From assembly GCA_023247085.1 (NCBI GenBank), contig JAHFHC010000013.1, positions 1 through 23,287 of the forward strand: 23,287 nucleotides of DNA, written 5' to 3'. This document shows, one piece after another, positions 3,829 through 19,162 of this stretch. The translations under genes were made by a program, and so were the position numbers. Each line of letters begins with the position of its first letter. Positions within the stretch are counted from its first letter, which is position 1. The notes below the pieces were generated by a model that saw only the letters and a program-made list of their open reading frames with translations, had not been told where the DNA came from and searched no databases. This DNA is from Microcaldota archaeon. GTDB lineage: Archaea > Micrarchaeota > Micrarchaeia > Norongarragalinales > UBA8480.

Positions 3829-4584
3829 GTGGATACTAAGATACTTGAAGAAATCGGCTTAACTCCTGGCGAAATTAAGGTTTACTTGGCGTTGATTGGC
3901 TTAGGAGAAACGTCAACTGGCCCAATTGTCCAAGAGTCTAATGTTTCAGTTTCAAAAGTTTATAATATTCTTGACCGTTTAGCAAAAAAAGGGCTAGCTA
4001 GTCACATTGTTCGAGGCAACGTAAAATACTTCAAAGCAGCTGATCCGTGGTTATTACTTAGTTACTTAAAAGAAAAGGAAGCGCGAATAAAAGCGCAAGA
4101 AATTCAATTGGAGCGCATTATTCCTGAGTTACAATTAAAGCAAAATTCAGTTGTAACTGAAGAAACGGCACAAGTTTTCGATGGTTTACGCGGGATTCAA
4201 ACTGCGCGTGAACGTACGTTGAATATTATGAAAAAAGGAGACGAAATGTGGATCATTGGTATTGCGCGTACGCCTTATGATCGGTTAACCACTTATTTCA
4301 ACGAATATCACAAACGTAGGGTGAAGAAAGGAATTAGGTGTAAATATATCTACAACGACTACGCTCGTAAGCCGTTTGGGGAACATTCGGCTGCTTTTCC
4401 ATTAAGTGAAGTGAAATATACTCCTGAAGGTATGGTTACCCATGCGTGGATAGAAATCTACGCTGATACGGTTACAATTGGGCTTAATTTCAAGCAGTCT
4501 TTTTCAGTTGTCATTCAGAATCAAGATGTTGCAGATTCGTTTAGAAACTACGCTCGTTTATTGTGGCAAATGGCAAAGAAGTAG
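3829..4584 (+). CDS. TrmB-family transcriptional regulator (251 aa)
   Basis: The N-terminus (residues 1-75, starting MDTKILEEIGLTPGEIKVYL) is the TrmB winged helix, with SVSKVYNILDRLAKKGL as recognition helix and wing lead-in. A coiled-coil helix follows (YLKEKEARIKAQEIQLERI), then a PLD-like C-terminal domain (GLRGIQTARERTLNIMKKG, then WIIGIARTP). It lacks the long sugar-binding domain of Thermococcus TrmB and so belongs to the shorter TrmB-like group with unknown effector. I chose GTG 3829 because the TATA box at 3800-3809 predicts transcription starting there; the GTG at 3814 would precede the transcript. It likely controls itself and the divergent operon. Confidence 0.85.
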   Translation: MDTKILEEIGLTPGEIKVYLALIGLGETSTGPIVQESNVSVSKVYNILDRLAKKGLASHIVRGNVKYFKAADPWLLLSYLKEKEARIKAQEIQLERIIPELQLKQNSVVTEETAQVFDGLRGIQTARERTLNIMKKGDEMWIIGIARTPYDRLTTYFNEYHKRRVKKGIRCKYIYNDYARKPFGEHSAAFPLSEVKYTPEGMVTHAWIEIYADTVTIGLNFKQSFSVVIQNQDVADSFRNYARLLWQMAKK

Positions 4585-4599
4585 TGAAGCACGGTGGTG

Positions 4600-5136
4600 T
4601 TAGCGTTTCGGAAACACTTTTGGCAGTTCTTCGTGGCATTTTTGGTAGAATTCAAGAAAAGCTTCTGTTTCTTCTTTAATGTATTGTTCAATTTTGTCGT
4701 ATTCTTTGTTTCTGTACCATGGGGCTATTACGCTTCCGTTTGTTTTTTTTGAAGTGAAGTTATGCATTCCGCAGCCTTTGAATTGGCCTTTGTTTAAGAT
4801 AACGAAAAGTGATTGTATGTCAATTGCTGGAGAATTGTACGTGAAATCATAAATGTCAAAAGGTATTGCGTGTTGTAAGCATTTGGTTTTCAAGAATTTG
4901 CGTTCATAGTTTAAATTGTTTCCAACGGGTATAAATGACCAGGGTTTTAGCAAGGGAATAAACTCTTTTAGAATTCCTTCTTCTCCTTTTTCCCATTCTT
5001 TCAAAATGTTCAACGAACCTGCAGGCGTGCCGTTTGCGTTCATTTCTTGATATTGAATAGTGATTATTTTGTCCTTTATCGGATTAGGTGTAGCGCCTTC
5101 GCTGAAAGTTTCAATGTCTAGATAAAAATAAGCCAT
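4600..5136 (-). CDS. predicted DEDD-type 3'-5' exonuclease (178 aa)
   Basis: RNase H-like exonuclease fold. The N-terminus MAYFYLDIETFSEG carries the first DxE motif (Asp7, Glu9); PVGNNLNYERKFL (70-82) takes the position of the N-x-x-F-D motif II but has Glu78 where Asp is usual; a C-terminal helix rich in acidic residues (YDKIEQYIKEETEAF) corresponds to motif III, again with Glu. It resembles PolB-type proofreading exonucleases standing alone. The start ATG 5136 is chosen because the protein then begins at motif I and an AAACTTAAAA TATA element lies at 5170-5161, about 29 nt upstream. It is divergent from the 180-aa gene. If the substitutions are real, the metal site is altered and activity is uncertain. 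Confidence 0.6.
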   Translation of the reverse strand: MAYFYLDIETFSEGATPNPIKDKIITIQYQEMNANGTPAGSLNILKEWEKGEEGILKEFIPLLKPWSFIPVGNNLNYERKFLKTKCLQHAIPFDIYDFTYNSPAIDIQSLFVILNKGQFKGCGMHNFTSKKTNGSVIAPWYRNKEYDKIEQYIKEETEAFLEFYQKCHEELPKVFPKR

Positions 5137-6474: not shown

Positions 6475-6536
6475 GTATTATTTTTCTTTGGCTTTTTTTC
6501 TAATGTTTTTCTTTCTTGAACCGTCAACGGCTTTTT
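6475..6536 (+). terminator. T-rich termination region after the PIN gene
   Basis: A series of T-tracts (TATTTTTCTTTGGC, then GCTTTTTTTCTAATG and TTTTTCTTTCTTG) and a short CCG/CGG stem followed by eight T residues at about 6529-6536. Archaeal RNA polymerase terminates on U-rich stretches without a strong hairpin, so this fits the end of the 5236-6472 transcript. Confidence 0.5.
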
Positions 6537-6560
6537 TTTCTGAAGAAAGAAGGGTGTTTA

Positions 6561-6691
6561 TGGACTTGCCGGGATTTTCGCAGCGCTTTCTTTTTTTCCA
6601 AGGTTTTTTTCTTTCCAGAAAGAAAAAAAGCTTATCGAACCCGGAGTCTCCACCTTGCGGAGGCGGCGTCTTACCATTCGACTACAAGCCC
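6561..6691 (-). tRNA. tRNA-Ala (anticodon CGC) with intron in the T-loop
   Basis: Exon 1 (6691-6634) gives acceptor GGGCTTG, T8 A9, a D-arm GTCG-AATGGTA-AGAC containing GG18-19, anticodon arm CCGCC-TCCGCAA-GGTGG and T-stem start CCGGG with TTCGAT. Exon 2 (6574-6561) gives T, CCCGG, CAAGTCC and A73. Joined, the T-arm is CCGGG-TTCGATT-CCCGG with a normal 7-nt loop, and the acceptor pairs fully with a G3:U70 pair, the alanine identity element. Anticodon CGC also means Ala. The mature length is 72 nt without CCA. Position 33 is C instead of the near-universal U, and the D-arm and anticodon stem resemble archaeal tRNA-Gly; both are odd. Confidence 0.85.
6575..6633 (-). other. 59-nt tRNA intron between positions 59 and 60
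   Basis: The junctions fold into a bulge-helix-bulge-like motif: outer T-stem CCGGG:CCCGG, central 4-bp helix TTCG:CGAA, 3-nt bulges ATA and AAT. Cutting each bulge after its second base gives the 7-nt T-loop TTCGATT. On the intron side the symmetry is relaxed, with an extra G (6581) opposite the first bulge before an AGC:GCT pairing. The intron body carries a perfect 12-nt inverted repeat (6604-6615 and 6618-6629, T7CT3C against GA3GA7). Non-canonical T-loop introns are known from Thermoproteales and a few other archaea. Confidence 0.75.
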
Positions 6692-6771: not shown

Positions 6772-8895
6772 TTATTGTTTTTGAGTCTTCGCTAATATCG
6801 CCACTATTCCAATTAATAGTATTAATATAACTGCAATTTGCGGCATTACGCTTGGTGAAACAATGCTTAAAGCGGGAATAGTGATTGCTTGTGAGTTTGA
6901 AACCCCTTCGTTTGCGCTGAATTGAAGGGTAATTGTTTGGTTAACGTTTGTTGGACGCTGTGCTGCTTTTAAGTTAATTCGAATTTGTGCGCTTTCCCCA
7001 CCTTGCAGCGAAATAACTGGCGGGGTTTGCGCGTAAATATAATTTAAATCATTTATGAGTGGGGTTACTTGTGAAATTGTTGCTCCGCCGTTGTTTGTTA
7101 CTGTGACAACTAAGTCGACACTTGTTGTTTCACCTGTGGGGTTTCGGTTTTCAATTATTTGATTTACAATAAAGCCGAATGCAATGTCGGTTGTTGTAAA
7201 TGTAATTGGTTGTGAAGCAAATTCGCCGTTTGTTGTGCGTGCAGTTAAATTAGCAAAAAATTGAGAGTCAGTTGCAGTTTGTGGTACTGTTACTAGTAAT
7301 GAAAAGTCTTCTGTTTCACCTGGAAATATGGTTCTAGAATCAGCTACGTACCAGGTTGATGGGATACCGTCGAGTGCAATTTTTACATCTGATTGCGGGG
7401 TTTGGCCAATGTTTTCAATTGTAATGTTAAATGCTTTTGCAATTCCTTTGACGAGTTTCACTTCTTCAACGCTTGTTATTTTTAGTAGTGATTCGCCGCT
7501 TCTGCCAGTTGGATAAACTGCTACATTTAAACCAATGTTTTTTGAAAAGCTCGGGGTGTCTAAACGTAGTTGAATTGTTTGGGCGCCAAGCGGTGTGTTT
7601 AAGTTTGAAACGAACCCAAGTGAAACAACTTGTGTTTCTCCAGGGTTAAGCGAAAATGTATTTGGCTGAATTTGTACATTTAGTTCAGTTGTTGGCACTG
7701 ATGACAATGCATATTCGAGTCTGGTGCTGCCTGCGTTTGTAATGTTTATCAATGTGTTTGTAATTCTAGTGCGTTCAATTACTATATTGCTCGGTGCAGC
7801 GATGTTCGTATCTGTAATGCCTTGTACTGTAAAGCAAAAGCTTTTGTCAAGAAATACAAAACCTTGGTAGGTTCCGCGTACTTTAAACGTATAATTGTCA
7901 ATTGGAGTGCGTAACTGTGGAGTTATTTGCACTTGAAATGGCTTTTGTTCACCTTGAAGTAGAGTCAATGTAGATTCAGTTACTTTAGTAATGCCCTTTA
8001 CCGTAGTGCTTCCTTCAATTAACAAATTAAATGGCCCGGTTGTCTCTTCATTGTTTTTCAAGATGAGTGGAATAGAAGTTGTGTTTCCAGGCGTAACTGC
8101 CAAGCAAGTATCCTGAATTGGAACATTTAGTAATTCGACTGATAGTTTTGGTGCATCTACGGTTATAGACAAAGGCAAGTCGAGGCTATAGTTGCAGCAG
8201 TTACCTGCGTCGACTTTGTAAATCCAAGAATAAACCCCGCCAGGAGTGCCTGGGGGCAATCGAACCGTTACAGTGACGTATTTTGTTTCACCTGAGAGTA
8301 AGGCGATGTTTGAAGCAGTGAGGCTAGTGGATGTTTCAAATGGATTAGTGTTTTTTGAAGTAATTGTTGCAAATATTTTTTTGTTTTCATTATTCTTTAC
8401 GCCGATTTTAAATTCAACTAAGTCACCTGGTCTTGCATTTTGGGGTTCAACGGGGGTTATCCAAGCTGTTACTGGTTGTGCAGTTGTCGAGTTGCCTTGA
8501 GTGACACTTGCGTGGAACGTAAGCGGGGTAGTGCATGTTGATCCGCTTGGCCCTGCGCGGAATTCTCCAGGAATGTCAAATGTTCCACTTGCACTCATTG
8601 CTTGAACATTTAACCTAACCGCTATTCTTTGTCCCGGTGCAAGTAGTGTGCTGTCACTTATACCACTATAAGAACATCTTAATTCAAGCGGGTTGCACTG
8701 TGCACTTGCACTTATGTGTTCGGTTGTTGTACCTTGGTTAAAAGCATTTATTGTAAAAGAACCCGTTTCTCCTGTTGTGATCACTAGATTATCATTGTAG
8801 TCTAAGTTTACTAGCCCGCAGTCAGTAGAAACGGCATTAGCCGAGAGTGAAAGTGCTAAAAATGCAAATAAGAACATTAAAACTTGTTGCTTCAT
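6772..8895 (-). CDS. secreted, membrane-anchored protein with NEW3/CARDB-type beta-sandwich repeats (707 aa)
   Basis: Signal peptide at residues 1-22 (MKQQVLMFLFAFLALSLSANA), a long extracellular part and one C-terminal membrane helix (about 680-703, PQIAVILILLIGIVAILA) with a short cytoplasmic KTQKQ tail. The body is a row of about 100-residue beta-sandwich domains with repeated signatures of the type L-x-P-G-E-T/S and variable V-x-N-x-G: LAPGQRIAVRLNV, LNPGETQVVSLGF, IFPGETEDFSLLV, LQGGESAQIRINL. This is typical of NPCBM-associated NEW3 and CARDB domains in archaeal surface proteins. It probably forms part of the cell envelope. A TATA box (AACTTTAAAA, 8930-8921) about 29 nt before the ATG implies a leaderless mRNA. 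Confidence 0.85.
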   Translation of the reverse strand: MKQQVLMFLFAFLALSLSANAVSTDCGLVNLDYNDNLVITTGETGSFTINAFNQGTTTEHISASAQCNPLELRCSYSGISDSTLLAPGQRIAVRLNVQAMSASGTFDIPGEFRAGPSGSTCTTPLTFHASVTQGNSTTAQPVTAWITPVEPQNARPGDLVEFKIGVKNNENKKIFATITSKNTNPFETSTSLTASNIALLSGETKYVTVTVRLPPGTPGGVYSWIYKVDAGNCCNYSLDLPLSITVDAPKLSVELLNVPIQDTCLAVTPGNTTSIPLILKNNEETTGPFNLLIEGSTTVKGITKVTESTLTLLQGEQKPFQVQITPQLRTPIDNYTFKVRGTYQGFVFLDKSFCFTVQGITDTNIAAPSNIVIERTRITNTLINITNAGSTRLEYALSSVPTTELNVQIQPNTFSLNPGETQVVSLGFVSNLNTPLGAQTIQLRLDTPSFSKNIGLNVAVYPTGRSGESLLKITSVEEVKLVKGIAKAFNITIENIGQTPQSDVKIALDGIPSTWYVADSRTIFPGETEDFSLLVTVPQTATDSQFFANLTARTTNGEFASQPITFTTTDIAFGFIVNQIIENRNPTGETTSVDLVVTVTNNGGATISQVTPLINDLNYIYAQTPPVISLQGGESAQIRINLKAAQRPTNVNQTITLQFSANEGVSNSQAITIPALSIVSPSVMPQIAVILILLIGIVAILAKTQKQ

Positions 8896-15139: not shown

Positions 15140-18100
15140 ATGCAAAAGACAAAAATTTCCATTCAAAAAACTCTTTTTTCACTTTTTCTGCTTATCTCGC
15201 TTTCATTAACTGTGGTGGCTCAACCTGTTTTTGTTTCAACAGCTGGCGCAGGTGCAGAGGCGCATTATATTCCGCCGTCTTTTGATGCTTATTCTCCTGA
15301 AGAGGTTATACTTGCTTTTGTTGGAAAAGAGGTATTTTCAAAGACAAGTGAAGATAAATTTTTGAAGTATTGTGCAGAGCCAGATGGCGTTGACAAAATA
15401 ACTGAAGAAGTTGCAAAAGTTTTAGATAATAGTAGCTTTGACTACGCTAGTGTTTGTACGTCGCTTGAAGGTGGATTTAGAGCTGCAGATGTAGGTGCTG
15501 ATTGGTGTGAAAAAGCACAGTCAGTTAAAAGTGTATCTTGTCCAGTGAATGAAGAGAAACTAGTTGAACAGTGTAAAAACCGGCTTAAAGATGAAAGTAA
15601 ATATAAAGATGTCGAAGAAGATGATGCTTTTGTATGTAAAAATGAATTCCGTAACCACAAAAAAGAATTAGAACAATTTTGTAAAGGTGGAGTAATTCAA
15701 TTTGAAGGTAAGTGTCCAAAGTTTCCAGAGTCAAATGAATGGGAACAAGAATGTAGGGTAAGGGGTGGAGTTCCTTCACGAGAAAAAACCAATGAGGGCT
15801 GTGAGTTTCCAAGATGTGATTTTAAAGGTGACCGGCCGCCGGTTATAACTGATTTTAATTCATGCCCGCCTATTCCGTTTGGCTGGGATGAGATGTGTAG
15901 GCGAACTGGTGGCGTCCCTAATACTGAAAAAAGAGGAAAATGTGAAGTTCCGCGCTGCAATTTTCAAGATGATACTGACCGCACGCGAATTTGCCCTGCA
16001 ATTGCCATTTCCCCAAACTGGCAAGAAGAATGCAGGAAAAGCGGCGGAATTCCAATTCCAAATAATAATTATGGTTGTCCAACTGCGGAGTGCAGGAAAC
16101 CAAACCAGTGTCCAGTTAACTACCTTGCAACAATTTGTGGAGCAGGTCAAGAACGTGTAACTGGAATAGATCCAGCAGGATGCCAATATACTTATTGTAA
16201 AACAACTGGAGAAATAGACCACACGCAAACGCCGTGTCCAGAGATTTCCTCTTCATGGTACGATGAATGCAAGCGAAGTGGAGGAACGCCAGAAGTAAAG
16301 CCTGATCAATATCGGCCTGCTTGTATGCAATTCACTTGCCCTGGCGCAGGAACCACCAATACGAAATGTCCTTCCAGTGATGAAAATCTAGAAGCATCTA
16401 AACAATGCATTTCGCGCGGTGGAAGCGTGTATTACAATTACGGTCAAGGAAATTGTCCAATAGTATCTTGTTATCAAGGCGGGTCGCAAACTTGTTCAGC
16501 TGATCCGTTTACTGAAACACAAGTACAACAATGTAAACAATCAGGCGGAACAGTTTCAACTAACTATGCAAATGGATGTGCTTATAGGTACTGCTACTTT
16601 GTTCCAGTAAACACTTGTCCAGCTCCAACTTCATGCCCAGCTGGTCAAGCATCTCGAGTTTCAAGTTATTCTGGAACGTGTCCAATTTATACTTGTGAAG
16701 CAACTAGCTGCCCTGCAACGCCAAGCTGCCCATCAAGTCAAATACTGCAACCCAATGGCAAAACCGCCCAAGGGTGTACACAATATGTGTGCAGCGCATC
16801 TTTACCTGGCACTTGTCCATCGCCACATCAATGTGCAGATGGCTCATATGCATCTTCAACAGGGTACACTACTCCCAGTTCAACTGGCCAAGCTTGTCCA
16901 GTGTATCAATGCAATGTAGCTACAACTGGGGAAGCTTGTCCGCCGATATCCTACCCTCCAGGTTGCACTTCTTACACTGCTAATATTGTTCCCTATCCTT
17001 ACACTACGCCTTCTGGAAAACAATTAAGTTGTAACATGTACGCTTGTGGCACGTCCAATACTTGCCCGAGTCCAACAAGTTGTCCGGCAGGTCAACGGTC
17101 AGAACCAGATCCAACAAACCAAGCCGCTTGCCCAGTGTATCGTTGTGTTCCTATATCTACTACTGGTGGCGGTGGAACGATTCCGACTTGTCCATCCTCT
17201 TCGCCAATGAGTTGCTCGTATGGTTCGCCCACTACGACGTATTATAATTATTCCACTTCCGGTGGGTGGACAATGTGCCCATCTTATAGTTGCAGTGGTG
17301 GGCCAATAAGTTGTCCGCCTGCGCCAGCATGCCCCGCTGGTCAATACTCTTATGCAGGTTCTGGTTCGTCAATGAGTGGTAGCTGTCCAACTTACCAGTG
17401 TATTTCAAACTCGTGTTCATGTTCATCTTCAGGTTCCATGGCTTCGCTTACCTGCCCCGCTGGCCAAGTTGCAACTTGGGAAGACCAAGCTCAATCATGT
17501 GGAACAACAACAATCCAGTGCTCTAAACCAGTTTGCAAAACTCTTCCAAAATGCACAAGTGGCTGTTCGTCAGGTACACAAACAACCTGTTCAGCTGGAA
17601 TGAAGTTAAAAACAAGCCAAAGTCCAATGTATTCCGGTAGCCAACAATGCTACTGTGAATCTTCATGGTGTGAAACAGACTACACTGCCCTGCCCGCTTG
17701 TTCGTCGTCGTCTACGTGCTATACTCCTACTTGCTCAGCTGGTCAAGTTGTAAAGACAAGTGACTCTTATTCCACTTACTCTGAAAATGGCCAACAATGT
17801 AAGTGCCAGTCAAAGTGGTGCGAGAACACTGCTACTTCATGCGCAAGTGCAACTTGCCCATCTAGTTATTCTACTCCGACTTGTACCGCCGGCCAAGTTC
17901 AAAAAACATCCACTACACCATACACGCCACCAGGCTGTTCAACTTCAATCCAGTGTACTAGCACTTGGTGCGAAACGGATTACTCTTCCTTACCAACTTG
18001 TAGCGCTTCAACTTGCCCGAGTTCATCATGCGGAACAGGACAAGTCCGCCGTACAGGAAGCGGATATTCTACGTATACTGAAAATGGCGCTCAATGTAAA

Positions 18101-19162
18101 TGTCAATCTTCATGGTGCGAAACAGATCCATCGCAATGCGCATCTGCAACATGTCCATCAAACACCCAGCCAACTTGCACCGCAGGCCAAACGCAGAAAT
18201 CATCAACTTACTACTACACGCCACCAGGTTGCACTGGCGCAAGTAATTCTATCCCTTGCCAAAGTTACTGGTGTGAAGGTTCTTCATCCACTACGACAAC
18301 TACCGCCAACACAAGCGGCTCTCGCATAAGCGGATTAGTCACTGCAAGCGAAACCGCTGCCGAAGTGGTTCCTCAAACTACTGCCCCCATACCATCGCAG
18401 CCTGCACCGCCACAGCGTGACACAATTCGCAGCATTTGCACTTCAAATGACGAACCTGACGAAACCGCGTTTGTAACTCAATGCTTATCTAACCGTAGAG
18501 TATACGCTTATAGCAGTTACGCGCCTAGAAACATTGAAGAAGTATGCAAAGAAGAAGTTAGACGCACTTTGCCGGAAATAACTTCATTCTGTGCTCAAGG
18601 AAAAGACCCTTACCAAGAATGCAAACAACGTTCTAAATTAACCCGGGCTAAATGTGCTGATGCATATTCGCAATGTAAACTGCTTGCTAATAAGTTTGAC
18701 GTACTTAATTTAGTTAAAAAGAGAGCTGCTACTGAATGTAAGCAACGCGCGTTCAATATTGACTTACTTTCTAATTCTTCAGTTGAACTAAGTCCAGTTG
18801 ACCAAGCACATGCCGATCTTGTAGCTGGCAAAATAGTCTTGACAAAAGAAGAGTTAGAGAAGCTAAAACAAGATATTAGAAAAGATGTACTAGCACAAGT
18901 GCAGTCTGATTTAGCGCGTTTATTCGGCGGCCGCGCAGACGAAGATAAAGCAGAAGCTGCACGTTCTATTAAACTAGCAACCGAGCTTGAAAGCAATGCA
19001 GTGCAAGTACGTGAAGTTTGCCAAAAAATAAATGACGATACTTGCAAAGCTGCGGTTAGTTTAGATGCACAAGCAAAAGAACTACGCACTCAAGCACAAG
19101 CTAGAATAAACACCGCTGGCGGAATAGTACAAATAATTTCAAACATATTAAGCGGAAAGTAA
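15140..19162 (+). CDS. giant secreted cysteine-rich modular protein (1340 aa)
   Basis: Signal peptide at about 1-28 (TLFSLFLLISLSLTVVAQ). Residues 30-190 form a charged, mostly helical region with scattered cysteines. From about 190 to 490 come modules of the form CP-x-W-x-x-E-C-x3-GG-x-P-x-GC-x4-C; from 490 to 795 modules of the form CP-x4-CPAGQ-x-CP-x-Y-x-C; from 843 to 1044 four 50-residue modules each opening with WCE. A Thr/Ser/Pro linker leads to a helical C-terminal domain (1094-1340) with more paired cysteines. I count about 109 cysteines, probably disulfide-bonded. There is no membrane anchor or sorting motif at the C-terminus. It may be an adhesin or envelope protein (inference). 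Confidence 0.85.
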   Translation: MQKTKISIQKTLFSLFLLISLSLTVVAQPVFVSTAGAGAEAHYIPPSFDAYSPEEVILAFVGKEVFSKTSEDKFLKYCAEPDGVDKITEEVAKVLDNSSFDYASVCTSLEGGFRAADVGADWCEKAQSVKSVSCPVNEEKLVEQCKNRLKDESKYKDVEEDDAFVCKNEFRNHKKELEQFCKGGVIQFEGKCPKFPESNEWEQECRVRGGVPSREKTNEGCEFPRCDFKGDRPPVITDFNSCPPIPFGWDEMCRRTGGVPNTEKRGKCEVPRCNFQDDTDRTRICPAIAISPNWQEECRKSGGIPIPNNNYGCPTAECRKPNQCPVNYLATICGAGQERVTGIDPAGCQYTYCKTTGEIDHTQTPCPEISSSWYDECKRSGGTPEVKPDQYRPACMQFTCPGAGTTNTKCPSSDENLEASKQCISRGGSVYYNYGQGNCPIVSCYQGGSQTCSADPFTETQVQQCKQSGGTVSTNYANGCAYRYCYFVPVNTCPAPTSCPAGQASRVSSYSGTCPIYTCEATSCPATPSCPSSQILQPNGKTAQGCTQYVCSASLPGTCPSPHQCADGSYASSTGYTTPSSTGQACPVYQCNVATTGEACPPISYPPGCTSYTANIVPYPYTTPSGKQLSCNMYACGTSNTCPSPTSCPAGQRSEPDPTNQAACPVYRCVPISTTGGGGTIPTCPSSSPMSCSYGSPTTTYYNYSTSGGWTMCPSYSCSGGPISCPPAPACPAGQYSYAGSGSSMSGSCPTYQCISNSCSCSSSGSMASLTCPAGQVATWEDQAQSCGTTTIQCSKPVCKTLPKCTSGCSSGTQTTCSAGMKLKTSQSPMYSGSQQCYCESSWCETDYTALPACSSSSTCYTPTCSAGQVVKTSDSYSTYSENGQQCKCQSKWCENTATSCASATCPSSYSTPTCTAGQVQKTSTTPYTPPGCSTSIQCTSTWCETDYSSLPTCSASTCPSSSCGTGQVRRTGSGYSTYTENGAQCKCQSSWCETDPSQCASATCPSNTQPTCTAGQTQKSSTYYYTPPGCTGASNSIPCQSYWCEGSSSTTTTTANTSGSRISGLVTASETAAEVVPQTTAPIPSQPAPPQRDTIRSICTSNDEPDETAFVTQCLSNRRVYAYSSYAPRNIEEVCKEEVRRTLPEITSFCAQGKDPYQECKQRSKLTRAKCADAYSQCKLLANKFDVLNLVKKRAATECKQRAFNIDLLSNSSVELSPVDQAHADLVAGKIVLTKEELEKLKQDIRKDVLAQVQSDLARLFGGRADEDKAEAARSIKLATELESNAVQVREVCQKINDDTCKAAVSLDAQAKELRTQAQARINTAGGIVQIISNILSGK
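17666..18271 (+). repeat. four tandem ~150-bp repeats (WCE modules)
   Basis: Trp codons of the WCE motif lie at 17666, 17816, 17966, 18113 and 18269, i.e. at intervals of 150, 150, 147 and 156 bp. Units alternate: odd units contain a YSTY-(S/T)-ENG-(Q/A)-QCKCQ end, even units a CASATCPS and TPPGC pattern. The region therefore looks like a duplicated ~100-residue pair rather than four equal copies. Confidence 0.8.

Follow-up and report, generated by a model that had tools for sequence, protein, structure and literature searches.

Position 59/60 in the T-loop is among the known non-canonical sites of archaeal tRNA introns, for which Crenarchaeota and Nanoarchaeota are rich sources (reviewed in PMC4090602). 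In Thermoproteales a large-scale transposition of tRNA introns has been reported (Fujishima 2010, as cited in PMC4090602), and ARMAN-1/2 have already been listed with multiple-intron tRNAs and an epsilon2 splicing endonuclease (PMC4033280). Permuted tRNAs joined at 59/60 occur in Thermofilum pendens and Cyanidioschyzon (PMC3218864). Class II intrastrand triplex motifs are a repeat type in bacterial DNA (PMC4666352); according to work cited in that paper, purine-motif triplexes were reported not to form in RNA.

We analyzed a window of 23,287 nucleotides (contig JAHFHC010000013.1) from a metagenome-assembled genome (MAG) of a Micrarchaeota archaeon, a DPANN host as a preliminary description of this DNA had supposed. 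Direct reading of the minus strand from 6691 to 6561 gave a tRNA-Ala(CGC) gene interrupted by a 59-nt intron at 59/60, in the order GGGCTTG TA GTCG..GAC, anticodon arm, CCGGG TTCGAT, 59 bases, T CCCGG CAAGTCC A. After excision of the intron in silico, the T-stem (5 bp, CCGGG:CCCGG), the T-loop (7 nt, TTCGATT) and the acceptor stem (7 bp) all close. The spliced tRNA carries the alanine identity features G3:U70 and A73 together with the anticodon CGC, and its 3' exon encodes no CCA. The features of the locus are listed below, where G001 and G002 denote two genomes of the same genus.

6634..6691, minus: 5' exon of tRNA-Ala(CGC), comprising the acceptor 5' strand, D-arm, anticodon arm, variable loop, T-stem 5' strand and T-loop positions 54-59 (TTCGAT); direct reading and partial RF00005 match; 58/58 identical in G001 and G002
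6575..6633, minus: 59-nt intron at 59/60; the syntenic gene of G001 lacks it, and G002 has it in diverged form
6561..6574, minus: 3' exon with T60, T-stem 3' strand CCCGG, acceptor CAAGTCC and A73; identical in G001 and G002
6636..6639, minus: exon strand of the central BHB helix, T54-G57 (TTCG), in the RNAfold model of the precursor
6577..6580, minus: intron strand of the central BHB helix, CGAA, in the same model
Minus strand, at the 3' splice junction: 3-nt 3' bulge, formed in the model by the last two intron bases (AA) and T60
6619..6629, minus: core strand Y, T7 C T3
6604..6614, minus: core strand R1, A3 G A7, complementary to Y
6598..6603, minus: linker CCTTGG between R1 and R2; a short GC hairpin in most family members
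6587..6597, minus: core strand R2, A7 G A3, mirror of R1 and parallel complement of Y; the register rule is seen in relatives too
6507..6554, minus: 3' trailer stretch with weak resemblance to the intron family, possibly degenerate (nhmmer E=0.24 only)

The gene was missed in the window by ARAGORN and by Rfam at the gathering threshold; RF00005 covers only its 5' part, at 25.7 bits, which is below threshold. Because these searches see nothing in the window, we wrote a custom cloverleaf-plus-intron scanner that allows up to two introns per gene, and ran it with a shuffled control on the 892-kb genome, which is 92% complete. tRNA-Ala(CGC) scored 24.6, and no score of 22 or higher was obtained in eight dinucleotide-shuffled genomes. 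An exact T-stem 3' strand with a pairing acceptor strand was present in only 4 of 20,000 random downstream stretches of the genome. The gene is not a product of chance. GCG codons are in use, with 77 in the window ORFs. Directly upstream of the tRNA gene lies a reading frame for a 707-aa membrane-anchored protein with NEW3/CARDB-like domains (6772-8895, minus). Elsewhere in the window (15140-19162, plus) a 1340-aa secreted-looking protein with many Cys-rich repeats (CPxxxxC..) gave no Pfam match.

The predicted spliced 72-mer was used as a BLAST query against 60 related genomes. G001 contains an uninterrupted tRNA-Ala(CGC) identical to it at 72/72 bases, which bears out the tRNA identity, intron boundaries and 59/60 site proposed in the preliminary description, and G002 contains an interrupted form. 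The three loci are syntenic, with the same gene just downstream; the exons are 100% identical across the three species, and the flanks are 85-90% (G002) and 63-67% (G001) identical to those of the window. Judged from these sequences, G001 vs. the window and G002 is an empty/filled site pair, which fixes the junction at 59/60 and the mature loop as TTCGATT. A cut at 58/59 would give the loop TTCGAAT; it was ruled out by the TTCGATT of the intronless G001 gene and by the BHB geometry, which gives 59/60. The Ala(CGC) intron of G002 is 93% identical to the Ala(GGC) intron of the window genome and 69% to its Ala(CGC) intron, despite the 85-90% flank identity, and this points to conversion or transposition of introns between tRNA genes after the two species split. 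The preliminary description did not note that the anticodon loop of the window gene, UCCGCAA (6653-6659, minus), has C33 where U33 is near-universal. A G29:U41 pair accompanies it; both are identical in the two congeners, and U33 is found in two relatives from the same family (G003 and G005).

The precursor was folded with RNAfold (z = -2.7 vs. shuffles). The fold contains the T-stem, a 4-bp central helix UUCG:CGAA and a 3-nt 3'-side bulge AAU, so that the relaxed BHB with a TTCG:CGAA helix described earlier was recovered. In place of a clean bulge, a 4x4 internal loop (AUAA/GCUG) lies on the 5' side, and the intron-side bulge is non-canonical; as modeled, the junction conforms to the archaeal BHB motif in relaxed form only.

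The window intron is not a lone oddity, since the genome has about twenty such introns. T-arm introns were found in at least 20 tRNA genes (15 scored and at least 5 further), many of which have a second intron. The scored genes include Ala CGC/GGC/TGC, Val CAC, Arg CCT, Thr TGT/CGT, Trp CCA and Gly TCC; the others are several class II genes, whose isotypes were not trusted since the scanner is unreliable for class II (Ser/Leu) isotypes. Equal scores were obtained 0 times in eight shuffles. The further ones, at least five, were read by eye around family hits at C35:82521, C5:12536, C3:25056, C4:7695 and C5:11363; to these come Leu genes that carry inserts in the same region. Trp(CCA), the sole Trp gene found in the genome, has a T-arm intron inside. 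All four central pairs between T54-R57 and intron bases -6 to -3 are possible in 10 of the 15 scored T-arm introns and not in the other 5. Position 59/60 would be a ready-made half-site: the T-arm half of the BHB motif is common to all tRNAs, and an intron ending in YGAANN would fit almost any tRNA there. Annotation overlooks many tRNA genes of these genomes; when introns were permitted, ARAGORN gave 17, several of them doubtful.

A family profile was built from nine T-loop introns and searched against the genome. It found dozens of related stretches, among them T-loop, anticodon, D-loop and variable-arm introns as well as tRNA trailers and leaders. Near-identical introns occur in different tRNA species, as in the transposed families of Thermoproteales: the Ala(GGC) and Gly(TCC) introns are 91% identical, and two introns on C35 and C3 are 95% identical. 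The window Ala(CGC) intron is more divergent (62-72%). A clear member lies in the tRNA-His trailer (C25:38460-38504), and the family core is found inside the 16S rRNA gene, where the insert C28:1566-1617 (minus), within the SSU match 713-2267, is probably an rRNA intron. An element near C35:30854-30994 matches no Rfam RNA. Antisense core elements lie inside longer tRNA introns at C28:321-361, C29:5339-5385 and C36:6162-6205, which looks like the insertion of one element into another. A different, GC-rich element (CCAGCGTCGACCCCT..CTGACCCCTCTGCAACC) was seen in the trailer of the intronless tRNA-Ala of G001 (about 1570-1620 of that stretch) and in the anticodon intron of the host tRNA-Glu(TTC) (C36:8117-8253); in the window genome it matches the tRNA-Glu intron only. 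Its two locations suggest another family moving between intron and trailer.

Many, not all, of the T-arm introns share a core of three strands: Y = T(a)CT(b), then R1 = A(b)GA(a), which forms a hairpin with Y, a linker, and R2 = A(c)GA(d), the letters in brackets being run lengths. R2 mirrors R1 and, almost without exception, follows the register of Y; matched to the Y:R1 helix, it would run antiparallel to R1. The core is absent from some T-loop introns of relatives (L072 and L074). The run lengths obey c = a in 37 of 43 elements of the genome (permutation mean 16, maximum 27) and in 27 of the 33 asymmetric elements, and 1 of the 33 has the Watson-Crick register c = b. In related genomes, searched with patterns that fixed Y and left R2 free (at least three As), 83 of the 84 distinct sequences with a = 5 also had c = 5, and c = 6 went with a = 6 in 22 of 23. 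Of 92 genera, 28 had a match to the a = 5 pattern and 41 to a looser one; controls with reversed patterns were close to zero. In 114 distinct elements, R1 and R2 are flanked by G-C or C-G in 75 cases and by G.G in 30. From these sequence comparisons we firmly conclude that Y and R2 follow a register rule. Neither duplication nor inversion explains the origin of R2, since neither gives a mirror image when the runs are unequal; such a mirror image would need selection for a position-by-position match of R2 to the Y:R1 helix.

The layout of a class II intrastrand triplex (Y-R-R' on one strand, R' the mirror of R) is present in the window element and the family. An RNA triple helix formed by the three strands is no more than a possibility, against which speaks the reported failure of purine-motif triplexes to form in RNA (work cited in PMC4666352). 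The polarity would be the same for an A-rich strand docked in the minor groove, a feature of some RNA pseudoknots. We put forward, as a conjecture that we hold to be rather unlikely, that Micrarchaeota harbor spreading BHB introns that fold as an intramolecular three-strand RNA helix (U-A.A and C-G.G triples), conserved through covarying run lengths in dozens of genera. Such a helix would make a purine-strand RNA triplex of natural origin, and might serve as a handle for reinserting the excised intron into T-arms. Signatures of a three-strand interaction are seldom as clean as this covariation, which gives a sharp structural prediction.

The same class II layout is a known repeat type of bacterial DNA (PMC4666352), and the core may instead act as DNA, as an intrastrand triplex, a PIT-type repeat or a small mobile element that merely came to lie in introns. 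This is a reading with some standing though not the one we favor. The viral contigs of IMG/VR gave only 10 motif matches, none with a tRNA found by ARAGORN and 8 of them away from tRNA genes, and some copies in the host genome are intergenic or antisense. On the other side, 47 of the 51 copies inside tRNA genes are in sense (15:3 in this genome and 32:1 in relatives), when a purely DNA element should be indifferent to the direction of the transcript; this bias argues that the transcript matters. The IMG/VR contigs (L194-L203) show the hairpin and mirror purine strand, e.g., CTTTTTCTTT..AAAGAAAAAGTTACAAAAAGAAA, and the motif type is thus wider than Micrarchaeota.

It is improbable that R2 is an alternative Watson-Crick partner of Y, in an RNA switch or a long-range closing stem, and not a third strand. 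The minimum-energy fold of the window precursor does pair Y with R2, not R1, in RNAfold, a program that cannot model a triplex. The register that such pairing needs is seen in 1 of 92 asymmetric elements vs. the mirror register in 87 of 92.

The splicing endonuclease gene of the host is on contig C26 (about 5060..3893, minus) with a 10-N assembly gap inside. The two halves match the ARMAN-2 enzyme 4FZ2 (E=8.5e-43 and E=3.7e-82) and are collinear with it (residues 12-180 and 198-387) across the gap; a fragment is 99% identical to the endonuclease of Micrarchaeota MAG isolate nzgw34. By homology the host enzyme is of the epsilon2 type, with three fused units alphaN-alpha-betaC. The alignments show conservation, in 4FZ2 numbering, of the catalytic Y236, H251 and K282, of R275, and of Y160 and K161 in the loop. 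Loop residues of the Y160/K161 type confer broad specificity in the ARMAN-2 enzyme (residue roles from PMC6379350 and PMC12397907). By analogy the host endonuclease would be homodimeric with broad cleavage specificity, and the catalytic triad and lysine loop agree with the broad-specificity enzyme predicted in the preliminary description. An RtcB ligase is also encoded in the host genome. A Y-R1-R2 core element lies antisense on C26 (3845-3879), just past the endonuclease stop codon, possibly regulatory and possibly a coincidence.

We consider this a working tRNA-Ala(CGC) gene with a non-canonical archaeal BHB intron that belongs to a recurrent family, many of whose members have the Y-R1-R2 core, at a probability of about 0.86. 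We infer that the transcript would fold with the T-stem formed and T54-G57 paired with the terminal CGAA of the intron; the epsilon-type endonuclease, presumably as a dimer, would cut in the two bulges, and RtcB would join the exons into a normal T-loop. The intron would be one of a recurrent, mostly sense-oriented family of roughly 60 nt that has spread among the tRNA genes of the lineage, with 59/60 as a convenient landing site. The likeliest role of the core would be a compact three-strand fold that holds the intron ends together.

It is very unlikely that the insertion killed tRNA-Ala(CGC) and left a disrupted pseudogene, with another tRNA reading GCG. tRNA-Ala(TGC) (C28:291-569), itself a gene with two introns, could read GCG by wobble, and the failure of standard finders on tRNA-Ala(CGC) would also fit. 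Against this, the exons are unchanged in three species with 10-37% flank divergence, the end of the insertion coincides exactly with a BHB cut that would restore the tRNA, and many other tRNA genes would need to be dead likewise, the one Trp gene found among them. An intact tRNA-Ala(CGC) elsewhere had been named beforehand as a sign against the spliced gene; none was found in the 92%-complete genome. A group I, group II or homing-type intron has a negligible chance. Group I introns do occur in archaeal rRNA (PMC6125680), but this one has 59 nt, no ORF, no Rfam match, no catalytic core and a BHB junction.

Returning to the spliced gene and its intron family, tRNA intron gain on a large scale has so far been described mainly for Thermoproteales, and Micrarchaeota would be a second lineage, with a different broad-specificity endonuclease. 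Empty and filled forms of one gene in one genus offer an independent test of whether enzyme breadth permits intron spread. The intron had been called notable for lying outside Thermoproteales; the DPANN host supports this, but the intron is less exotic within its lineage given the multiple-intron tRNAs listed for ARMAN-1/2 (PMC4033280). We did not find the shared Y-R1-R2 core described in the literature, in which ARMAN introns were compared from secondary sources; T-loop BHB introns and epsilon endonucleases are already known.

Like Thermoproteales introns, those described here use the 59/60 site and a relaxed BHB, occur several per tRNA and are similar in different tRNAs. Unlike them, they are in a DPANN host with an epsilon and not an alpha-beta endonuclease, and many contain the core, which we did not find described for Thermoproteales. 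The permuted tRNAs (PMC3218864) share the T-loop junction, whereas the exons here are in normal order. With the bacterial PIT/BoxC/TM class II motifs (Hoyne 2000, as cited in and extended by PMC4666352), the core shares a pyrimidine stretch followed by a purine and then a mirror purine stretch, all on one strand, in many copies per genome. The E. coli element is, as presented in that source, G/C-rich DNA described relative to ORFs, whereas the present core is T4-7CT3-5/A-rich and lies in sense inside tRNA introns and in the 16S rRNA gene. The introns of ARMAN-1 and ARMAN-2, in the same phylum (Fujishima 2011; Hirata 2012; 4FZ2, 9W2K), are likewise non-canonical and come with the same three-unit lysine-loop enzyme. 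Taken alone, the tRNA-Ala(CGC) intron is a BHB intron at the known 59/60 site; the family with the mirror-register core is the new part.
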